A stretch of 35,465 nt of DNA, taken from assembly GCA_017522915.1 (NCBI GenBank), contig JAFWXX010000019.1, positions 1-35,465 of the forward strand. Direction: 5' to 3'. A model generated the notes under the pieces. It saw only the letters and a program-made list of their open reading frames with translations, did no database searches and was not told where the DNA came from. A program made the translations under genes and the position numbers. The DNA comes from Bacteroidaceae bacterium. GTDB lineage: Bacteria > Bacteroidota > Bacteroidia > Bacteroidales > Bacteroidaceae. Positions 22,127 to 29,784 of the stretch are shown here, one piece after another (the stretch's first letter is position 1; every line of letters starts with the position of its first letter).

Positions 22127-22143
22127 GCAATCGAGCTATAATG

Positions 22144-22184
22144 AAAAAGAACAGGACTGTTCAATGCGCAGTCCTGTTCTTTTT
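22144..22184. terminator. Terminator shared by nagB and the convergent glycosyltransferase
   Basis: A perfect 16-base stem (22144-22159 with 22169-22184) has a 9-base loop, with an A run on one side and a T run on the other. It can therefore stop transcription from both directions. The glycosyltransferase stop codon starts one base beyond the stem. Confidence 0.88.
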
Positions 22185-23042
22185 TTATTCTTCTTGTTCG
22201 AGTCTCGCAATAAGCCCGGTGCTGAACTCTATCCACTCGTTAATGTAGGGCTCAATCATCTCCTTTGTCGGGCGGCAATCCTTTATCTCGCTAATGCATC
22301 CGGCATATCCTTCGGCCAGCGGAATTGCCGTAAGCAGTTCCTTGTCGTGCTTTTCGAAGAATCTGATGAGGTCGGCTGCGCACAATGCCCTGAAGAGTGC
22401 ATTCTTGAACCTTGTCGCACTATGTGTAAGACTGCCGGGCCGCATACGGTAGTTGTAGCCGATATTGTCGGTATATACAACCTTGTTCGCGAAGAAGAGC
22501 TGGGGAATTATTACAGGCGTGTCCTCTATGAACCTGCGCTTGCAGTAGGGCACCATGTCGTGAAGCTCCCTTCTTATAAGCTTGTTGTTCATGAAGACAA
22601 TCCTTTCACCCCAGAACCTTGTTAGCTTTTCCCGTCCCTCCACAATGCAGTTGCCGTATGACTTGCCCTCCCAACTGCCGTCGCTGTTGGCGATTCTTAT
22701 TCCTCCGCTGACGATGTCGGCGTCATGTTCCTTCGCGCAGTTGTAGAGCGTCTCTATGAAATCATCCTCAAGCCAGTCATCTCCGTCAAGCAGGAGAATG
22801 TATTCACCCTCTGCGGCTTCTATTCCTTTCCTGCGCGATGCACCGGCACCCATGTTCGTGCTGTTGTATATAACTTTTACTCTCCAGTCCTTTATTTGCG
22901 AGAGTATCTCACGGGTGTTGTCGGTAGAGCAATCCTCCACCACGATTATCTCCAGTTCCTTGAATGTCTGCCTGCATGCCGATGCAATGGACTCTTCAAT
23001 CCAGGGAGCTACGTTGTACGCGGTTATTACTATACTTATCAT
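22185..23042 (-). CDS. Family 2 glycosyltransferase (GT-A fold)
   Basis: This 285-residue cytoplasmic enzyme would transfer a sugar from a nucleotide-sugar donor. The N-terminal half is a typical GT2 domain: ISIVITAYNVAPWIEESIAS, EIIVVEDCSTDNT, the Asp-containing metal/nucleotide motif DGDDW at residues 86-90, then MNNKLIRRE. The C-terminal 80 residues are helical with no transmembrane segment, so it is not a processive synthase. Its ATG overlaps the stop of the preceding small gene by one base (TAATG), a sign of translational coupling. The acceptor is unknown; with phage-like small genes upstream it could act on a surface structure. No other sugar-pathway genes flank it. Confidence 0.88.
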   Translation of the reverse strand: MISIVITAYNVAPWIEESIASACRQTFKELEIIVVEDCSTDNTREILSQIKDWRVKVIYNSTNMGAGASRRKGIEAAEGEYILLLDGDDWLEDDFIETLYNCAKEHDADIVSGGIRIANSDGSWEGKSYGNCIVEGREKLTRFWGERIVFMNNKLIRRELHDMVPYCKRRFIEDTPVIIPQLFFANKVVYTDNIGYNYRMRPGSLTHSATRFKNALFRALCAADLIRFFEKHDKELLTAIPLAEGYAGCISEIKDCRPTKEMIEPYINEWIEFSTGLIARLEQEE

Positions 23043-23290
23043 TACTGTCCGGTCTTGAATCCCAATGCTTTGAGGAATATAGTGAACTGTGCGGTGTCAA
23101 TGGTGAAATTCCCCTCCTTTACATTTATTCCGGTGTCGTTTACAATACCGTTGCTTGCAACTGCTGTGCCTAATGTCACATACAGCTTGTTCTGGTTTGC
23201 AAGGCTTGTACCGAACTGCAATCCTTTCCCTACTTCGGGAATGATATCGTATGTATCATCCCCAATCCTGATTTTGTTTATTGATGCCAT
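23042..23290 (-). CDS. Small protein resembling a phage structural N-terminus
   Basis: This 82-residue protein starts MASINKIRIGDDTYDI. Openings of this form (ASI-KI-VG-TYDI) are common at the start of phage tail or head-fibre proteins in gut bacteria. The rest is beta-rich, with NKLYVTLGTAVASNG and a repeat-like ending FTIDTAQFTIFLKALGF. No signal peptide or membrane segment is seen. It lies 5 bases after the 92-residue gene and overlaps the glycosyltransferase start by one base, so the three form an operon. No other phage genes are near, so it may be a domesticated fragment. The phage likeness is from recall only and moderately uncertain. Confidence 0.6.
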   Translation of the reverse strand: MASINKIRIGDDTYDIIPEVGKGLQFGTSLANQNKLYVTLGTAVASNGIVNDTGINVKEGNFTIDTAQFTIFLKALGFKTGQ

Positions 23291-23295
23291 ATCCT

Positions 23296-23574
23296 TTAAT
23301 TAATGATTAGTACTCCATCTTTTGCTCTTACGTTGTCGGCCTTCAGTGCAAGAATATTCCCGGCTCTTCTTATGCACAAGGCATTGCTGCCGACGAGCTT
23401 CAGTACACCGCCGTTGAATATGTACTCGATGCGTATTGCAGTGTTCATGCACGATGACGCAATCTTCGAAGCTATCAGTTCGAGGTCGTTGCTGCCGAAC
23501 AGCTCCTTTATGTTGTTGAGGAATGTCATTGCAGGGCTGCCGTTTGACGAACTGAAGATTATTTTCTTTTTCAT
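23296..23574 (-). CDS. Small hypothetical protein upstream of the phage-like gene
   Basis: I do not recognise this 92-residue protein. It begins MKKKIIFSSSNGSPAMTFLNN, has an amphipathic middle (ELFGSNDLELIASKIASS), and ends in a beta-rich part (GGVLKLVGSNALCIRRAGN...) closing with KDGVLIIN. The start at 23574 is chosen over the in-frame ATG at 23619 because a TACATTTG box (minus strand, 23592-23599) lies between them. It is the first gene of a three-gene minus-strand unit with the phage-like protein and the glycosyltransferase. Confidence 0.55.
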   Translation of the reverse strand: MKKKIIFSSSNGSPAMTFLNNIKELFGSNDLELIASKIASSCMNTAIRIEYIFNGGVLKLVGSNALCIRRAGNILALKADNVRAKDGVLIIN

Positions 23575-23591
23575 TCTGTTTGTTTTTTCGG

Positions 23592-23599
23592 CAAATGTA
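23592..23599 (-). promoter_or_regulatory. Candidate -7 box for the small-gene/glycosyltransferase operon
   Basis: The minus strand reads TACATTTG, a match to TAnnTTTG, 17 bases before the ATG at 23574. The -33 element is weak. Confidence 0.4.
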
Positions 23600-23694
23600 G
23601 CACGGAGTCTCTCCTGCATGGTTGCTGAATTGCCATAATGGAATGGCCTTTTGCAATGTCGCTCTATAAATTATGTAGTTTACAATAATTTAGA

Positions 23695-23702
23695 TATATT
23701 TG
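23695..23702 (+). promoter_or_regulatory. Candidate -7 box for the TPR-TIR-TPR operon
   Basis: TATATTTG matches TAnnTTTG and lies 31 bases before the ATG at 23734. No clear TTTG is found 19-20 bases upstream. The surroundings are A/T-rich. Confidence 0.45.
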
Positions 23703-23733
23703 TAAATTATAATTGATTGTAAGATTCGTGTAT

Positions 23734-26433
23734 ATGAACAAGAAACTGTTTCTTCTTCTGTTGTCATTGCTGTCAGTGTTGCCTATTCTTGCGCAGGTGC
23801 AGAAAGGTGTTGTCAAGAGCCGCGGACGCGTCGATTCAAAAGGCACTTATATTCCGGGAAAGGGCATTGCCGATGCTTTTGTCAAGGTAAAAGGCGCAAA
23901 TGAGGTAGCCAGCGGTGCCGACGGAAGCTTTGAACTGAATCTTCTTAACAGGAGCTTTTATCTTGAAAGTGTTTCCAAGAAGGGGTATATGCTGGTCGAT
24001 GGGGATATGCTCATGAAACACTACGACTACTCTCCTAACAGCTTCGTGATACTCCTTACTACACCAGAGCAGCGCAACAAGGATGAGATAATGGCAGAAC
24101 GCCGTTTGCGTAGTGCAATGCAGCAACAACTTCAGAAGAGAGCAGCTGAAATAGACTCGCTTCTTAAAATGAACAAGCTGAGCGAGGAGGAATACAACAA
24201 ACTTCATAAGGAGTTCATACGCAGTCAGGAAACGAACGAAAAGCATGTGAGGGAAATGGTCGAACGCTATTCAACCATAGACTACGACCAGCTCGATGAA
24301 TCAAACCGCCGGATAACATTCTTCATGGAAAATGGCGAGTTCGCTAAAGCCGATTCTATGCTCAGAAGCAAAGGCGATGTCGCCCAGCGGGTAAAAGAGT
24401 ACATGGAGCACAATAAACTGAACAAGTCGAGGCGTGACGAACTTGACAAGGAGCAGGGTGACTATGCAAAGAGCGAACAGATAGCACGCCGTAACCTTGA
24501 GGAACTGGCCAACGACTGCTACAGCAAGCACGAGATATACAGGATGTCCCATGAGAATGACTCGGCTGTATATTATATAAAGATGCGTGCAGCACTCGAT
24601 GAGGAGAATGTACAGTGGCAACTCGATGCAGGAGGGTTTCTTAATAAATTCGTGTCCGATTATGCTGCGGCATTCACCTATTACGACAGGTCGTTGAAGC
24701 TTGTCATTGACCGTTATGGCAGGAATCATGACGCTACAGCTTCATGCTTCAGCTACATAGCCAATATCCACGAAAACAGCGGAGATTACTCGAAGGCTAT
24801 CGAATACTACGGCCTGGCATTGGGTATAGAAGAGTCGCTGCACGGTGCAAACAGTTCCGAGGTCGCTGCCTGCCTGAACAATCTGGGCGGTGTGTATAAT
24901 ATGACGGGGGCGTACTCTATGGCAATGGATTACTACAGCAGGGCTCTTGAGATATACATTAACCAGTATGGTGAGAACCATCCGGCTGTAGCAGCTGCCT
25001 ACAATAACATAAGTACTCTTCTCAGCAAGCAAGGCGACTACAACAAGGCACTGGAGTATTCTCTGAAGTCAATGGAGATTGGCGACTCGCTCATTGGGGA
25101 AACTTCTCCGGCAATGGCCGCCAACTACAGCAGTATTGCACTTGCATACGATAATCTATGCATTTACGACAAGGCTCTTGAATATTATGAGAAGTCGCTT
25201 AAGATCAAGCTTTCCATGTATGGCGAAAGACATCCCGATGTGGCTGCCGGTTATTGCAATATCGGAACATTATACAGCGAGATTGCTTCATACGGCAATG
25301 CCTTGGGCTATTACCGCAAGGCACTTGATATACAACGTGCAATACTGAGCGACAAGCACCCCGATATTGCGACTACCTATAACAACATAGGACAGCTGTA
25401 TGGCAATACAGGCAATTACCAGGAAGCACTCGAACATTACAGGAAGGCTCTGGAGATACGTCTGGGTATTTATGGCGAGAATAATCCCGAAGTAGCAAAA
25501 TCGTATGGCAATATCGGAGTCGCCTATTTCAACATCGGCAACTACGAACTGGCCGAGCTCAATTATCAGAAGGCACTTGAGCTTCAGCTTATGATTCATG
25601 GCGAGAAACATCCCGACATTGCTGTCACATACGGCAATATGGCACTTCTGGCCGAAAAGAAAGGCCATTACTCCTTGGCTATGGAGTACTTTGACAAGGC
25701 AATGGATGTACGCAAGGAGATTCTTGGCGGTGAGCACCCCGATGTTGCAATGAGCTGCAACGGCATAGCCGGCATATATGTTGTAATGGCCGACTATTCA
25801 ATGGCTCTGAAATTCTACGGAAAGGCTCTTGAGATACTGCTGAAGGCATACGGAGAGAAACACCCCTCTGTAGCTTCGGTTTACAGCAATATGGGTGACG
25901 TGTATGCGAAAGACAAGATTTGGGAAAAGAGCCTCGAATACCACGAAAAGGCTTTGGGCCTGCGCCGGGAACTCTTGGGCGAGAACCACCCCGACCTTGC
26001 TGAGAGCTATAACGACCTTGCTGCCATATATGAGAACGACGGAAAGCACAATGAGGCAATAAAGCATTATAAGGATGCTCTTGACATACAGCTCGAAGTG
26101 CTGGGCGAGAATCATCCGAATGTTGCTGTCACTTATAACAATCTTGGCATTGTATATAATAATATCGAGATGTATCAGAAGGCTCTTGAATGTTATACAA
26201 AGGCCTTGAACATACAGCTTGAGGTGTATGGCGAGAATCATCCCGACGTCGCGACAAGCTATAACAATATCGGTGCGGTATATTTCAACTTCCTCAACTT
26301 TGAAAAAGCCGCCGAGAACTTGAAGAAAGCATACGGGATAATGAAAGGATTCCTTCCGCACAATCATCCTACCCTTCAGATATTCAAGGATAATATAGAA
26401 CGTGCAGAAGATGAAATCAGAGCCAGACGATAA
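23734..26433 (+). CDS. Exported TPR protein with 13 tandem 42-residue repeats
   Basis: This 899-residue protein of unknown function starts MNKKLFLLLLSLLSVLPILAQ, a signal peptide for export; the upstream in-frame ATG at 23713 is unlikely. After it comes a small beta-sandwich-like domain resembling carboxypeptidase-regulatory domains (PGKGIADAFVKVKGANEV...GADGSFELNLL). A charged helical, probably coiled-coil part follows at about residues 115-260. Then come 13 head-to-tail repeats of exactly 42 residues (DNA 24718-26355) of the form GENHPDVATSYNNIG..Y...G.Y.KALEYY.KALEI...., the kinesin-light-chain type of TPR, well diverged from one another. Such arrays bind proteins or peptides. It is 36 bases upstream of the TIR gene and paralogous to the TPR gene on the other side. 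No catalytic motif was seen. Confidence 0.85.
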   Translation: MNKKLFLLLLSLLSVLPILAQVQKGVVKSRGRVDSKGTYIPGKGIADAFVKVKGANEVASGADGSFELNLLNRSFYLESVSKKGYMLVDGDMLMKHYDYSPNSFVILLTTPEQRNKDEIMAERRLRSAMQQQLQKRAAEIDSLLKMNKLSEEEYNKLHKEFIRSQETNEKHVREMVERYSTIDYDQLDESNRRITFFMENGEFAKADSMLRSKGDVAQRVKEYMEHNKLNKSRRDELDKEQGDYAKSEQIARRNLEELANDCYSKHEIYRMSHENDSAVYYIKMRAALDEENVQWQLDAGGFLNKFVSDYAAAFTYYDRSLKLVIDRYGRNHDATASCFSYIANIHENSGDYSKAIEYYGLALGIEESLHGANSSEVAACLNNLGGVYNMTGAYSMAMDYYSRALEIYINQYGENHPAVAAAYNNISTLLSKQGDYNKALEYSLKSMEIGDSLIGETSPAMAANYSSIALAYDNLCIYDKALEYYEKSLKIKLSMYGERHPDVAAGYCNIGTLYSEIASYGNALGYYRKALDIQRAILSDKHPDIATTYNNIGQLYGNTGNYQEALEHYRKALEIRLGIYGENNPEVAKSYGNIGVAYFNIGNYELAELNYQKALELQLMIHGEKHPDIAVTYGNMALLAEKKGHYSLAMEYFDKAMDVRKEILGGEHPDVAMSCNGIAGIYVVMADYSMALKFYGKALEILLKAYGEKHPSVASVYSNMGDVYAKDKIWEKSLEYHEKALGLRRELLGENHPDLAESYNDLAAIYENDGKHNEAIKHYKDALDIQLEVLGENHPNVAVTYNNLGIVYNNIEMYQKALECYTKALNIQLEVYGENHPDVATSYNNIGAVYFNFLNFEKAAENLKKAYGIMKGFLPHNHPTLQIFKDNIERAEDEIRARR

Positions 26434-26469
26434 ATAAGAGTCGGATAATTCAAGAAGCTTCTTAGGAAT

Positions 26470-27594
26470 ATGGAGAAATATAGATATTTTGCGTTCATCA
26501 GCTACAACTCCAAGGATGTGGAGTGGGGCAAGCGTCTGCAGCGCAAGCTCGAAAGCTACAGGTTGCCTTCAACTTTGTGCAGCAAGCATAACCTGGAAAA
26601 GAGACCTATCAAGCCGGTCTTCTTTGCTCCGACTGATATACAGCCGGGCGGCCTCACTGCAGAACTGCAGGAGCGGTTGAAGGCTGCACGTCATCTTATA
26701 GTAATCTGTTCGCCGAATTCGGCTAAGTCGCAATGGGTTGCTAAGGAGATAGAGTTCTTCCACTTGTTAGGCCGTAGCTCGAATATACATTTCTTTATAG
26801 TAGCCGGCGAACCTCATAGCGGCAACCCCGACACGGAGTGCTTCAACCCGGTGGTAGATGAACTGGGAATCCCTGAAATACTCGGTGCCAATGTCAACGA
26901 GAAGGTTTACCGTTGGCCATGGCTCAACAAAGAACGCGCCTATGTGCAGCTTGTAACAAAGCTGCTGGGCATTGAGTTCGATTCAATATGGCAACGCCAC
27001 AAGAGACGGCTGATATACAGCACGGTCATGTGGGCCATTTCCCTGTTGGCAGTGCTTGCCATTATTCTCTTTGCATGGCAGGCCAACTATCCGCGTGATG
27101 TGGAAGTAACGGTAAACGATTCGTTTGTCAACAGCGAGCTTCTGGCGCCGGAGAATATAATCGTGACACTTGAACTTGAAAATGAAGAGCGCATAGATAC
27201 CGTTCCCGGTTTGGAACACCTTGTCATGTTCAAGAATATACCGGCCAAGTTCTTCAACGGGAATGTCCGTATCGGTGTACGTTGCGGTTCCTATCTTGCA
27301 ACAGACACAACAGTGCTCCTTGAAGAGAAACTAAATGTTGCCATAAGGCGCGACCCTGCAATCTATGGCGATGTGCATTTCTATGTAAAGGATGAATCGG
27401 GAGAGGTTGCCGTGCCCGGTGTCGAGGTGGAGATTGCAGGAATAAAGGCCGTTTCGGCAGCCGATGGCCTCGTCGAGTTCAAGATACCGCTGGAGAAGCA
27501 ACGTAGAAGCTATGCTATCTCATCTTCAGCAGCATTGATGGCCGATACTCTTTACATGCCTTGCAACCCCAACAGCGTAATAAGGCTTAAGTGA
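26470..27594 (+). CDS. Transmembrane TIR-domain protein with periplasmic beta domain
   Basis: This is a 374-residue protein. Residues 1 to about 150 form a bacterial TIR domain: YFAFISYNSKD (first strand and loop), PVFFAPTDIQ, LIVICSPNSAKSQWVAKEIEFF. E93, in the W-x-x-x-E position of the last motif, matches the catalytic Glu of TIR NAD-cleaving enzymes. A basic stretch (QRHKRR) and one membrane helix (about 181-203) follow. The remaining 165 residues would lie in the periplasm and include VPGVEVEIAGIKAVSAADGLVEFKIP, a carboxypeptidase-regulatory-like beta fold. Known TIR proteins act in NAD depletion or nucleotide signalling, often in phage defence; that activity here is inference. It sits between two exported TPR proteins, 36 bases after the first and about 29 bases before the second. 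Confidence 0.85.
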   Translation: MEKYRYFAFISYNSKDVEWGKRLQRKLESYRLPSTLCSKHNLEKRPIKPVFFAPTDIQPGGLTAELQERLKAARHLIVICSPNSAKSQWVAKEIEFFHLLGRSSNIHFFIVAGEPHSGNPDTECFNPVVDELGIPEILGANVNEKVYRWPWLNKERAYVQLVTKLLGIEFDSIWQRHKRRLIYSTVMWAISLLAVLAIILFAWQANYPRDVEVTVNDSFVNSELLAPENIIVTLELENEERIDTVPGLEHLVMFKNIPAKFFNGNVRIGVRCGSYLATDTTVLLEEKLNVAIRRDPAIYGDVHFYVKDESGEVAVPGVEVEIAGIKAVSAADGLVEFKIPLEKQRRSYAISSSAALMADTLYMPCNPNSVIRLK

Positions 27595-27623
27595 GATATA
27601 TCAAGACAAAAACCAATTTTATT

Positions 27624-29690
27624 ATGAAACGCTTTTTCGTATTCTTTCATTTGTTTCTTTTGGTTTACGCATCTGCTTCTTCTCAAATTCAGCAGGGTTT
27701 AGTAAAGACTCCAGGGCGTATAAATGCTGATGGTGAATATGTTCCAGGCAAGGGTATTTCAAATGTTCTTGTCAAGGTGAAAGGCGCAAATGAGGTCAAT
27801 AGCGGAAATACAGGATGTTTCAGCCTTAAATTGCTTAAGACAAAGTTCTATCTTGAAAATGTTATAAAGAACGGATATGTGCTTGTTGACAATGATGTCC
27901 TCTCCAAGGAATACAGCATAAGCCCCGATACTTTCAAAATAGTTCTTGCTGCACCTCAGGAACAGTTGGATGCAGAAGTTGCCAATTATCGCAGAATCCG
28001 GCGCAATCTCACCCGCCAGCTGCAGAAACGCGAGGATGAGATAGAAGAACTGTACGCTTCAAACAAGATTCTTAAGGCTGAACGTGACAGTGCATTGCAA
28101 CAGCTCTATTCTGCACATGCCAACAACGAGAAACTTATAAAGGATATGGTAGAACGCTATTCGCGCATCGACTTTGACAATCTGGATGAATATAACCGTA
28201 AAATAAGCGAGTATATTCTTGAAGGAGAACTTGTAAAGGCCGATTCCATGCTCAATAGCAAGGGCGATATCCATTCCCGTATTAAACAGTTGCGTAGTCA
28301 GGAGAGAATCAATGAGGCTGAACGTGCCGAACTTGACGAACGTGAAGCTGCGCTGCTGAAGAGCGAGGAATATGCCCGCAAAAATCTTGATGATATTGCT
28401 GCCGATTGCTACCATAAGTTCGAGATGTTCAAGATTCAGCATCTGAACGATTCTGCAGCTTATTATATTGAACTGCGTGCCGGGCTTGATACAACAAATA
28501 TCGATTGGCAATTTGATGCCGGCGTATTTATATCGGAATATCTTGCCGAATATGACAAAGCAGTTAATTATTACAAACTTGCTTTACAATCAGCACTTTT
28601 AAAAGATGGTGGACGTCATCCCGATGTAGCAGCCAGTTACAATAATATAGGTTATATATACAATCGTCAAGGCGATTATGCCAAAGCTTTGGAATACTAT
28701 AATAAAGCAGTTGAAATCCTTTTGTCTGTTTTAGGTGAACGTCATCCCGATGTAGCAACCAGTTACAATAATATAGGTTATATATACAATCGTCAAGGCG
28801 ATTATGCCAAAGCCTTGGAATACTATAATAAATCCCTTGAAATCCGTTTGTCTGTTTTAGGCGAACGTCATCCCGATGTAGCAACCAGTTTTAATAATAT
28901 AGGTCAGATATACCATAGTCAAGGCGATTATGCCAAAGCCTTGGAATACTATAATAAATCCCTTGAAATCCTTTTGTCTGTTTTAGGCGAACGTCATCCC
29001 GATGTAGCAACCAGTTTTAATAATATAGGTCAGATATACTATAGTCAAGGCGATTATGCCAAAGCCTTGGAATACCATAATAAATCCCTTGAAATCCTTT
29101 TGTCTGTTTTAGGTGAACGTCATCCATATGTAGCAACCATTTACAATAATATAGGTCTTGCATACCATAGTCAAGGCGATTATGTCAAAGCTTTGGAATA
29201 CCATAATAAATCCCTTGAAATCCGTTTGTCTGTTTTAGGCGAACGTCATCCCGATGTAGCAACCAGTTACAATAATATAGGTCTTGCATACCATAGTCAA
29301 GGCGATTATGCCAAACCCTTGGAATACTGTAATAAATCCCTTGAAATCCGTTTGTCTGTTTTAGGCGAACGTCATCCCGATGTAGCAACCAGTTACAATA
29401 ATATAGGTCTTGCATACCATAGTCAAGGCGATTATGCCAAAGCTTTGGAATACCATAATAAATCCCTTGAAATCCGTTTGTCTGTTTTAGGTGAACGTCA
29501 TCCCGATGTAGCAACCAGTTACAATAATATAGGTGGTATATACTATAGTCAAGGCGATTATGCCAAAGCTTTGGAATACCTTGATAAGTCATACGGTATT
29601 TTAAAGGATTTCTTGCCGGATGAGCATCCATACATAAAAACTGTTAGAGGCAATATAGAATATCTGAAATCCAAAATCAACAAACAATAA
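27624..29690 (+). CDS. Exported TPR protein with 8 near-identical 42-residue repeats
   Basis: This 688-residue protein is paralogous to the TPR protein upstream of the TIR gene. The chosen ATG at 27624 gives a signal peptide MKRFFVFFHLFLLVYASASSQ. An in-frame GTG at 27591 overlapping the TIR stop is less likely. The same small beta domain (PGKGISNVLVKVKGANEV) and charged helical region follow. Then come 8 repeats of 42 residues at 28608-29615 (consensus GERHPDVATSYNNIG.AY.SQGDYAKALEY). Unlike the first paralogue, the repeats are nearly identical in DNA, and their A/T content is higher than in surrounding genes. The array can therefore change copy number by recombination. Function is unknown; protein binding is the usual role of such repeats. 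It is last in the TPR-TIR-TPR unit. Confidence 0.85.
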   Translation: MKRFFVFFHLFLLVYASASSQIQQGLVKTPGRINADGEYVPGKGISNVLVKVKGANEVNSGNTGCFSLKLLKTKFYLENVIKNGYVLVDNDVLSKEYSISPDTFKIVLAAPQEQLDAEVANYRRIRRNLTRQLQKREDEIEELYASNKILKAERDSALQQLYSAHANNEKLIKDMVERYSRIDFDNLDEYNRKISEYILEGELVKADSMLNSKGDIHSRIKQLRSQERINEAERAELDEREAALLKSEEYARKNLDDIAADCYHKFEMFKIQHLNDSAAYYIELRAGLDTTNIDWQFDAGVFISEYLAEYDKAVNYYKLALQSALLKDGGRHPDVAASYNNIGYIYNRQGDYAKALEYYNKAVEILLSVLGERHPDVATSYNNIGYIYNRQGDYAKALEYYNKSLEIRLSVLGERHPDVATSFNNIGQIYHSQGDYAKALEYYNKSLEILLSVLGERHPDVATSFNNIGQIYYSQGDYAKALEYHNKSLEILLSVLGERHPYVATIYNNIGLAYHSQGDYVKALEYHNKSLEIRLSVLGERHPDVATSYNNIGLAYHSQGDYAKPLEYCNKSLEIRLSVLGERHPDVATSYNNIGLAYHSQGDYAKALEYHNKSLEIRLSVLGERHPDVATSYNNIGGIYYSQGDYAKALEYLDKSYGILKDFLPDEHPYIKTVRGNIEYLKSKINKQ
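28608..29615 (+). repeat. Tandem array of eight 126-base repeats inside the second TPR gene
   Basis: Eight in-frame units of exactly 126 bases begin at 28608, 28734, 28860, 28986, 29112, 29238, 29364 and 29490. Units 2 to 8 differ at few positions. The first and last are more diverged, as expected at array edges. Counting one unit gives about 39% G+C. Confidence 0.92.
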
Positions 29691-29691
29691 T

Positions 29692-29722
29692 TTTGCATTG
29701 CCTGTAACTTTTAGTAATTTTG
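29692..29722 (+). promoter_or_regulatory. Bacteroidota promoter for the peptidase operon
   Basis: TTTG at 29692-29695, then 19 bases, then TAATTTTG at 29715-29722: a full match to the Bacteroidota -33/-7 consensus with ideal spacing. It sits just after the second TPR gene stop, so the peptidase is transcribed separately. Confidence 0.75.
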
Positions 29723-29737
29723 CATAAATTTATGCAA
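29720..29737. promoter_or_regulatory. 18-base palindrome overlapping the -7 box
   Basis: TTGCATAAATTTATGCAA is a perfect 18-base palindrome. It overlaps the end of the -7 box and would cover the transcription start, a typical place for a repressor operator. No regulator gene is adjacent. Confidence 0.5.
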
Positions 29738-29784
29738 TATATCTATTGCTTGATTTAACTCGTTGACAATAAAACAAATAATAT

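Follow-up and report, generated by a model that had tools for sequence, protein, structure and literature searches.

A candidate transmembrane TIR receptor with exported TPR partners and interchangeable cytoplasmic heads in Bacteroidales

Introduction

To our knowledge, bacterial TIR defence systems sense in the cytoplasm. The locus described here, a cassette of three genes (TPRa, a TIR receptor, and TPRb), shares with Thoeris (ThsB TIR and ThsA) a TIR domain with a conserved Glu, and an NAD-made nucleotide with a separate reader would be the output. In the cassette, however, the TIR domain is predicted to be membrane-anchored and to have an ectodomain, and the candidate sensors are exported TPR proteins; PADLOC gave no match to the ThsA effector among the three cassette proteins and five of their neighbours. 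STAND/NLR proteins with TIR have an NTPase domain between TIR and repeats, whereas the Pfam matches listed for the cassette proteins (25 of 27 in the case of TPRb) include neither NACHT nor NB-ARC. FimS-type TPR-sensor histidine kinases differ as well: the Pfam scan of the three cassette proteins returned no kinase family, and the FimS model scored 138.7 and 95.8 bits on TPR stretches, against a cut-off of 600.

With Toll-like and IL-1 receptors, the cassette shares, by prediction, a cytoplasmic TIR domain, one membrane helix, and a ligand side beyond the membrane. The available part of a TIR survey mentions transmembrane TIR receptors for the Toll/TLR and IL-1R groups and gives IL-1R types Ig-like ectodomains (PMC7075850). 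The cassette TIR, in contrast, is N-terminal and is followed by a CnaB/CarboxypepD-like ectodomain; moreover, repeats are part of the same chain in Toll/IL-1R, whereas the TPR repeats of the cassette are found in separate exported proteins and the receptor chain has beta-sandwich domains. The cassette looks like a gut-bacterial counterpart of Toll-type receptors.

Two other described groups touch on relatives or neighbours of the receptor. DUF4062 is reported, in the available part of the Swarozyc study, to be a TIR-like antiphage NADase, with phage portal protein as the activator of Swarozyc, and the words ‘transmembrane’ and ‘periplasm’ are absent from its main text (PMC13174449); a DUF4062-like head replaces TIR in four relatives of the receptor, the protein studied here being itself a TIR protein. 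RyR-domain phage proteins are reported, likewise in the available part of the source, to bind or cleave 2'/3'cADPR and to serve phage counter-defence (PMC13232231). The resemblance to such RyR proteins acting on cADPR signals is that many TIR-headed receptors have a RyR gene next to them or elsewhere in their genome; here, in contrast, the RyR proteins are bacterial and their genes often adjoin channel-like genes. A 2015 survey of nucleotide-centred systems reportedly treats TIR, and perhaps RyR, domains, so the TIR-RyR link may have been predicted before.

The available part of an eLife conflict-system survey has no such module (PMC7159879), and the main text of a gut TIR NADase study lacks the words ‘transmembrane’, ‘operon’, ‘tetratricopeptide’, and ‘periplasm’ (PMC9092222). 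A literature search found the layout in none of the titles and abstract openings that it returned, in keeping with the original prediction that it is not a named system. Here, we describe the cassette in its window (by which we mean the whole analysed stretch of 35,465 nucleotides, positions 1 to 35,465 of JAFWXX010000019.1 from a Bacteroidaceae bacterium) and compare it with relatives from other genomes.

Organization of the three-gene cassette

The window is contig C36 of a 2.41-Mb assembly. Among named records, it is matched most closely by three Bacteroidales MAGs, two from the cecum and one from the abomasum of water buffalo. In the window's ORF list, the cassette consists of three plus-strand ORFs in the order TPRa, TIR receptor, TPRb, with intergenic gaps of 36 bases (TPRa/TIR) and 29 bases (TIR/TPRb), confirming the earlier claim of three genes on one strand with short gaps. 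Upstream of TPRa lies TATATTTG (23695..23702, plus strand), 31 bases before the ATG, which matches TAnnTTTG, a motif that we take to be the Bacteroides -7 promoter element; no plus-strand match to TAnnTTTG occurs between the three cassette genes. A match before TPRa and none between the genes fits a single transcript.

TPRa (23734..26433, plus strand; ATG at 23734, stop codon ending at 26433; called from ORF and Pfam) is a candidate exported sensor of 899 aa. Its signal-peptide-like start (23734-23793, plus strand) is followed by a beta domain, a coiled coil, and a TPR array that spans approximately residues 315-890 (24676..26403, plus strand), where Pfam TPR_12 matches 13 stretches and PADLOC reports TPR from residue 315. 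TPRb (27624..29690, plus strand; ATG at 27624, stop codon ending at 29690), a second candidate exported sensor of 688 aa, has a signal-peptide-like start at 27624-27683 (plus strand) and a 126-bp tandem repeat at 28613..29579 (plus strand; 7.7 copies, 94% matches, a size that the assembly may have got wrong) whose units are near-identical 42-aa TPR units. Its structure model (mean pLDDT 90.1) places the beta domain at residues 21-109, followed by long helices and by TPR helices at 275-660. TPR_12 matches are strong in both proteins (1.7e-166 in TPRa and 1.6e-139 in TPRb), and the N-terminal partner profile matches TPRa at 2e-98. Signal-peptide-like starts were called by a simple hydrophobicity rule, not by SignalP; the rule found one in 41 of 46 partners, and at least some of the other 5 are cut or over-long ORF calls. 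The make-up originally proposed for the outer proteins (signal peptide, beta domain, coiled coil, and long TPR array) is upheld by TPR_12, this rule, and the TPRb model.

The TIR receptor

Between the two lies the gene for the 374-aa receptor (26470..27594, plus strand), delimited from the ORF, Pfam, the alignment of relatives, and a structure model. Residues 1-170 (26470..26979, plus strand) form a TIR domain predicted to be cytoplasmic, with E93 (codon 26746-26748) within SPNSAKSQWVAKE. Pfam assigns TIR_2 (4.7e-11, above the family cut-off) and ThsB_TIR (2.6e-6); matches to ThsB-type profiles are weak. E93 is kept without exception in the 15 full-length relatives that were aligned, a number that counts the window's own protein. 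In the structure model (mean pLDDT 86.3), TIR chains of SARM1, SPARTA, and MyD88 are among the top structural matches, in a comparison that mainly covers residues 3-169 and not the ectodomain. Both the alignment and these modelled likenesses are consistent with the proposed TIR fold with an intact catalytic Glu.

A single membrane helix is predicted at residues 184-202 (27019..27075, plus strand), with a basic stretch on the TIR side: four K/R in the 15 residues before the helix and one after. The same bias, more K/R before the helix than after, is seen in 32 of 34 receptors, with one tie, and agrees with the cytoplasmic-TIR topology of the original prediction. Residues 206-374 (27085..27591, plus strand) form an ectodomain that, judging from the model and Foldseek, seems to consist of two beta-sandwich domains in tandem. 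Of these, the distal domain is related to the beta domain of the partners (profile match 95.2%, E 2.5e-8); the likeness of the ectodomain to pilin/CnaB comes solely from Foldseek, with TM-scores that are low over the whole chain. The predicted combination in the middle protein (TIR with E93, one membrane helix, and a beta domain) is thus matched by Pfam, alignment, and predictions.

Distribution and linkage to partners

Matches to the whole TIR protein occur in 21 of 201 family genomes, many of them covering only the TIR part. A receptor profile restricted to the membrane helix and ectodomain (A3; 32 rows, threshold E <= 1e-9) finds matches in 9 of the 201 genomes of the family and in 17 of the 393 of the order, with the window's genome counted. 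In the phylum sample, 2 of 394 genomes match besides the window's own; both are short loci without the cassette layout, L109 with no head or partner seen and L110 with a CarboxypepD-type stretch only. We therefore reject a phylum-wide system, for which the phylum sample adds just these two matches, and also a strain-only oddity, given the matches in other family and order genomes.

A set of 34 receptors (the window's, three from named MAGs, and 30 from other genomes) was inspected for neighbours. A partner with the N-terminal domain of TPRa/TPRb lies at most three gene slots away from 26 of the 34, always on the same strand, and four further receptors (L039, L043, L065, and L091) have a TPR gene upstream that is cut by the contig end, almost 1 kb off in L043. 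No partner was seen beside the receptor at L036, L099, L102, and L104, whose genomes have the partner domain elsewhere. By comparison, 1 of 20 control TIR proteins that lack this ectodomain has a partner neighbour, and that one shares its locus with a receptor; chance neighbourhood is rejected on these counts. The arrangement recurs in other genomes, so the gene order is not unique to this strain, and it varies: long TPR-TIR-short coiled coil (L034, L037, and L040), TIR-short-long (L038), TIR, short, long (L046, long-short read in the other direction from TIR), and short-long-TIR (L005).

At the level of genomes, the partner domain (E <= 1e-15, 80 genomes) is present in 24 of 25 receptor genomes and in none of 55 receptor-free genomes, the latter drawn mostly in handle order from non-matching lists (neither random nor kinship-matched, with weak or TIR-only matches in some) and including 12 from the window's family, which supplies 9 of the 25 receptor genomes. 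The single miss is G076, whose receptor locus sits at a contig start. Among receptor genomes outside the partner query alignment, 8 of 9 match. This linkage bears out the view of the layout as a conserved unit. Several paralogues can occur in one genome: four lie within 8 kb in G285, and G490 has eight matches.

Interchangeable cytoplasmic heads

Seven of the 34 receptors have a cytoplasmic head other than TIR: four DUF4062-like (L101, L103, L105, and L106), two C39-peptidase-like (L100 and L102), and one short head without family assignment (L104). Partners adjoin five of these seven. As a group, the DUF4062-like heads match DUF4062 in a profile comparison at 97.5% (E 8e-12, against four DUF4062 sequences, from 4 of 10 loci considered, one of the sequences being below the Pfam cut-off), with other profile pairs at 0.1-1% and the TIR profile of the window at 0.3%; the head of the window is therefore not DUF4062. 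The Pfam match of DUF4062 to these heads, E 0.059 in one of two scanned singly, is too weak by itself, and solved structures gave no useful match to the DUF4062-like head. The C39-peptidase-like heads match Pfam Peptidase_C39_2 at 2e-5 and 6e-3, only the first being above the cut-off. By eye, a sigma-factor-like ORF (L102:7600-8202) is seen just upstream of one C39-headed receptor. Relatives with the same receptor and other alarm enzymes suggest a signalling or immune system without a name.

RyR-domain and channel-like genes

The largest neighbour family at receptor loci and other TIR loci is a membrane protein of ~700 aa; it occurs at 10 loci, of which 7 also have a receptor. Of eight members scanned with Pfam, the one at L046 passes the RCK cut-off (Slo-like_RCK 2.1e-5), L181 falls below it, and six have no match, so that a channel identity is weakly suggested by sequence. 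The assignment of small RyR-domain proteins is clear, with Pfam matches of 6e-30 to 1e-36 in three of them and further members identified by profile. A second membrane family, related by profile to the channel-like one (96.3%), was seen at four loci, three with a DUF4062-headed receptor and one of TIR-WD40 type; TrkA_N matches are below threshold in both members scanned.

RyR family members occur in 14 of the 25 receptor genomes, against 9 of the 55 without a receptor (p 4.8e-4; this and the other co-occurrence p-values ignore kinship and are uncorrected, 19 tests having been run). Within the window's family, the counts are 7 of 9 against 3 of 12 for RyR (p 0.024) and 9 of 9 against 4 of 12 for RyR or channel-like genes (p 0.0024). 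Members of the channel-like family occur in 16 of the 18 genomes whose receptors are TIR-headed, in 0 of the 7 whose receptors have another head, and in 7 of the 55 receptor-free ones; loci from TIR-bearing genomes supplied the query, and the 0 of 7 may partly reflect its reach. For RyR and/or channel-like genes, the respective counts are 17 of 18, 2 of 7, and 11 of 55. Considered by itself, RyR occurs in 12 of 18 receptor genomes with TIR heads and in 2 of 7 with other heads, which is not a clear difference (p 0.10), and the latter group is no different from receptor-free genomes. Judging by the match coordinates, 9 of the 19 RyR rows from receptor genomes are no more than about 11 kb away from a receptor gene; for the channel family, 6 of 21 rows are at most about 5 kb away from one.

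The window itself has no RyR or channel-like gene; the copies of its genome (G000) are on another contig, C51 (L176:8904-13427), as a consecutive PrsW-protease-RyR fusion, RyR protein with a zinc-ribbon-like tail, and channel-family gene. As to the output, the swappable heads and the RyR/channel-like genes are more informative than the three genes by themselves.

Other arrangements involving these families were seen. At L180:5932-8389, the genes ahead of two partner genes encode an MscS-type channel (Pfam 2e-8), part of a channel-like family protein, and a RyR protein, an arrangement that may include a split channel; L090:2866-5373 resembles it by eye. At L179:7537-9482 (G127), a RyR protein comes first, then a TIR-FGE-sulfatase-like protein predicted to have a membrane helix, and then exported-looking proteins.

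Insertion site and surroundings

In the window, nagB and the S37 peptidase gene are separated by a stretch (22127..29784, compared with relatives) that holds a GT2 gene, a small ORF, and the three-gene cassette. Measured between tblastn match ends, the nagB-S37 gap is about 190-330 bp in 5 of 12 relatives versus 7.66 kb in the window; at the other S37 loci, the gap is filled by other genes (L163), nagB is not beside S37 (four relatives), or the stretch reaches a contig edge (two). The cassette interrupts the nagB-S37 junction and is an insertion polymorphism. In the relative L003, this site is occupied by TPR-TIR, and both TPRb and the GT2 gene are missing. A small minus-strand ORF (23296-23619, 107 aa) is 57% identical in L003, where it occupies the same place beside the cassette; it has no Pfam and no PADLOC match.

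The neighbours of the cassette read as metabolic genes, PADLOC matched none of five neighbouring proteins of the window, phages and viral contigs gave no match, and plasmid matches cover the TIR part only. The metabolic-looking neighbours, the five unmatched proteins, and the lack of phage or viral relatives speak against a role in defence. The same observations would suit ordinary envelope or nutrient sensing (of cell-wall stress, glycans, or peptides) with an identical topology, in which the TIR domain is a scaffold or a low-level signalling enzyme; TPR arrays of peptide sensors such as Rap and NprR also rank among the top structural matches, as do many other TPR proteins. We nevertheless consider such a housekeeping role unlikely: the patchy spread (9 of 201 family and 17 of 393 order genomes), the insertion polymorphism, the head swapping, and the RyR/channel-like link all fit conflict systems better, and E93 is kept in 15 of 15 relatives.

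Sequence divergence and the nature of the threat

Between the window and L003, TPRa has a dN of 0.349 with saturated synonymous sites, and the TIR receptor has a dN of 0.092 and a dS of 0.595; these values are rough, many synonymous sites being saturated and TPR registers being liable to shift. Flanking genes range in dN from 0.003 (nagB) to 0.290 (ABC), with GH43 at 0.258, and TPRa is not far above the last two, which are fast flanking genes. In three other pairs of loci, the TPR array of the long partner is 84, 64, and 37% identical, compared with 97, 74, and 92% for TIR and 87, 69, and 68% for the ectodomain.

In these pairs, the TPR arrays show less conservation than do TIR and ectodomain; the sensors are predicted to be extracytoplasmic; and several paralogues can share a genome (the four in the 8-kb stretch of G285 and the eight matches of G490). 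These observations would also suit a defence aimed not at phage but at other bacteria or at toxins that damage the envelope, in which the TPR proteins would bind an incoming effector or debris and the TIR branch would lead to dormancy or death. No evidence here separates this version from the phage version, and taken as a replacement for it, an exclusively antibacterial or antitoxin role seems to us rather improbable.

Proposed mechanism

We somewhat favour a transmembrane receptor module that runs from TPR sensors through NAD cleavage by TIR to a RyR/channel output and that responds to threats. TPRa and TPRb would be exported and reside in the periplasm, where their TPR arrays may bind a ligand and the proteins may contact the receptor at its beta ectodomain. 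The receptor could be clustered by the coiled coils or by TPR superhelices, and clustering would gather the cytoplasmic TIR domains and lead to NAD cleavage, either as depletion or as an ADP-ribose-type signal; such a signal would probably be read by RyR-domain proteins and RCK-type channel-like membrane proteins. The likely role would be a response to an extracytoplasmic threat, be it phage at the surface, envelope attack, or damage.

We suggest, as a reading slightly less likely than not, that these receptors constitute a class of bacterial innate immune receptors: Toll/IL-1R-like, with a fast-changing TPR sensor that is exported separately, a swappable head (TIR, DUF4062-type NADase, or C39-type peptidase), and a TIR branch leading to RyR/RCK-type channels, serving to detect attack from beyond the inner membrane. 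If true, a membrane-crossing receptor with exported sensors and swappable heads would mean that bacteria share the logic of animal Toll/IL-1 receptors, and it would make testable whether bacteria sense attack before DNA entry. The RyR/channel link additionally suggests a bacterial setting for NAD-derived signals paired with ryanodine-receptor domains.

Related architectures

Several proteins of related design were seen alongside. A single-chain TIR-membrane-helix protein at L051:7238-9529 has a WD40 array, and others (L048:4460-7867, L055:9750-13019, and L041:3578-6862) have long ectodomains without a Pfam repeat family; these WD40 or long ectodomains stand where the split system has exported TPR proteins. 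TIR-WD40 proteins at L056 and L057 have no membrane helix by the helix-calling rule. Finally, exported-looking TPR-CHAT proteins (L005:9092-11347 and L107:6548-9322; CHAT 5e-48 and 6e-48) adjoin TIR membrane proteins.
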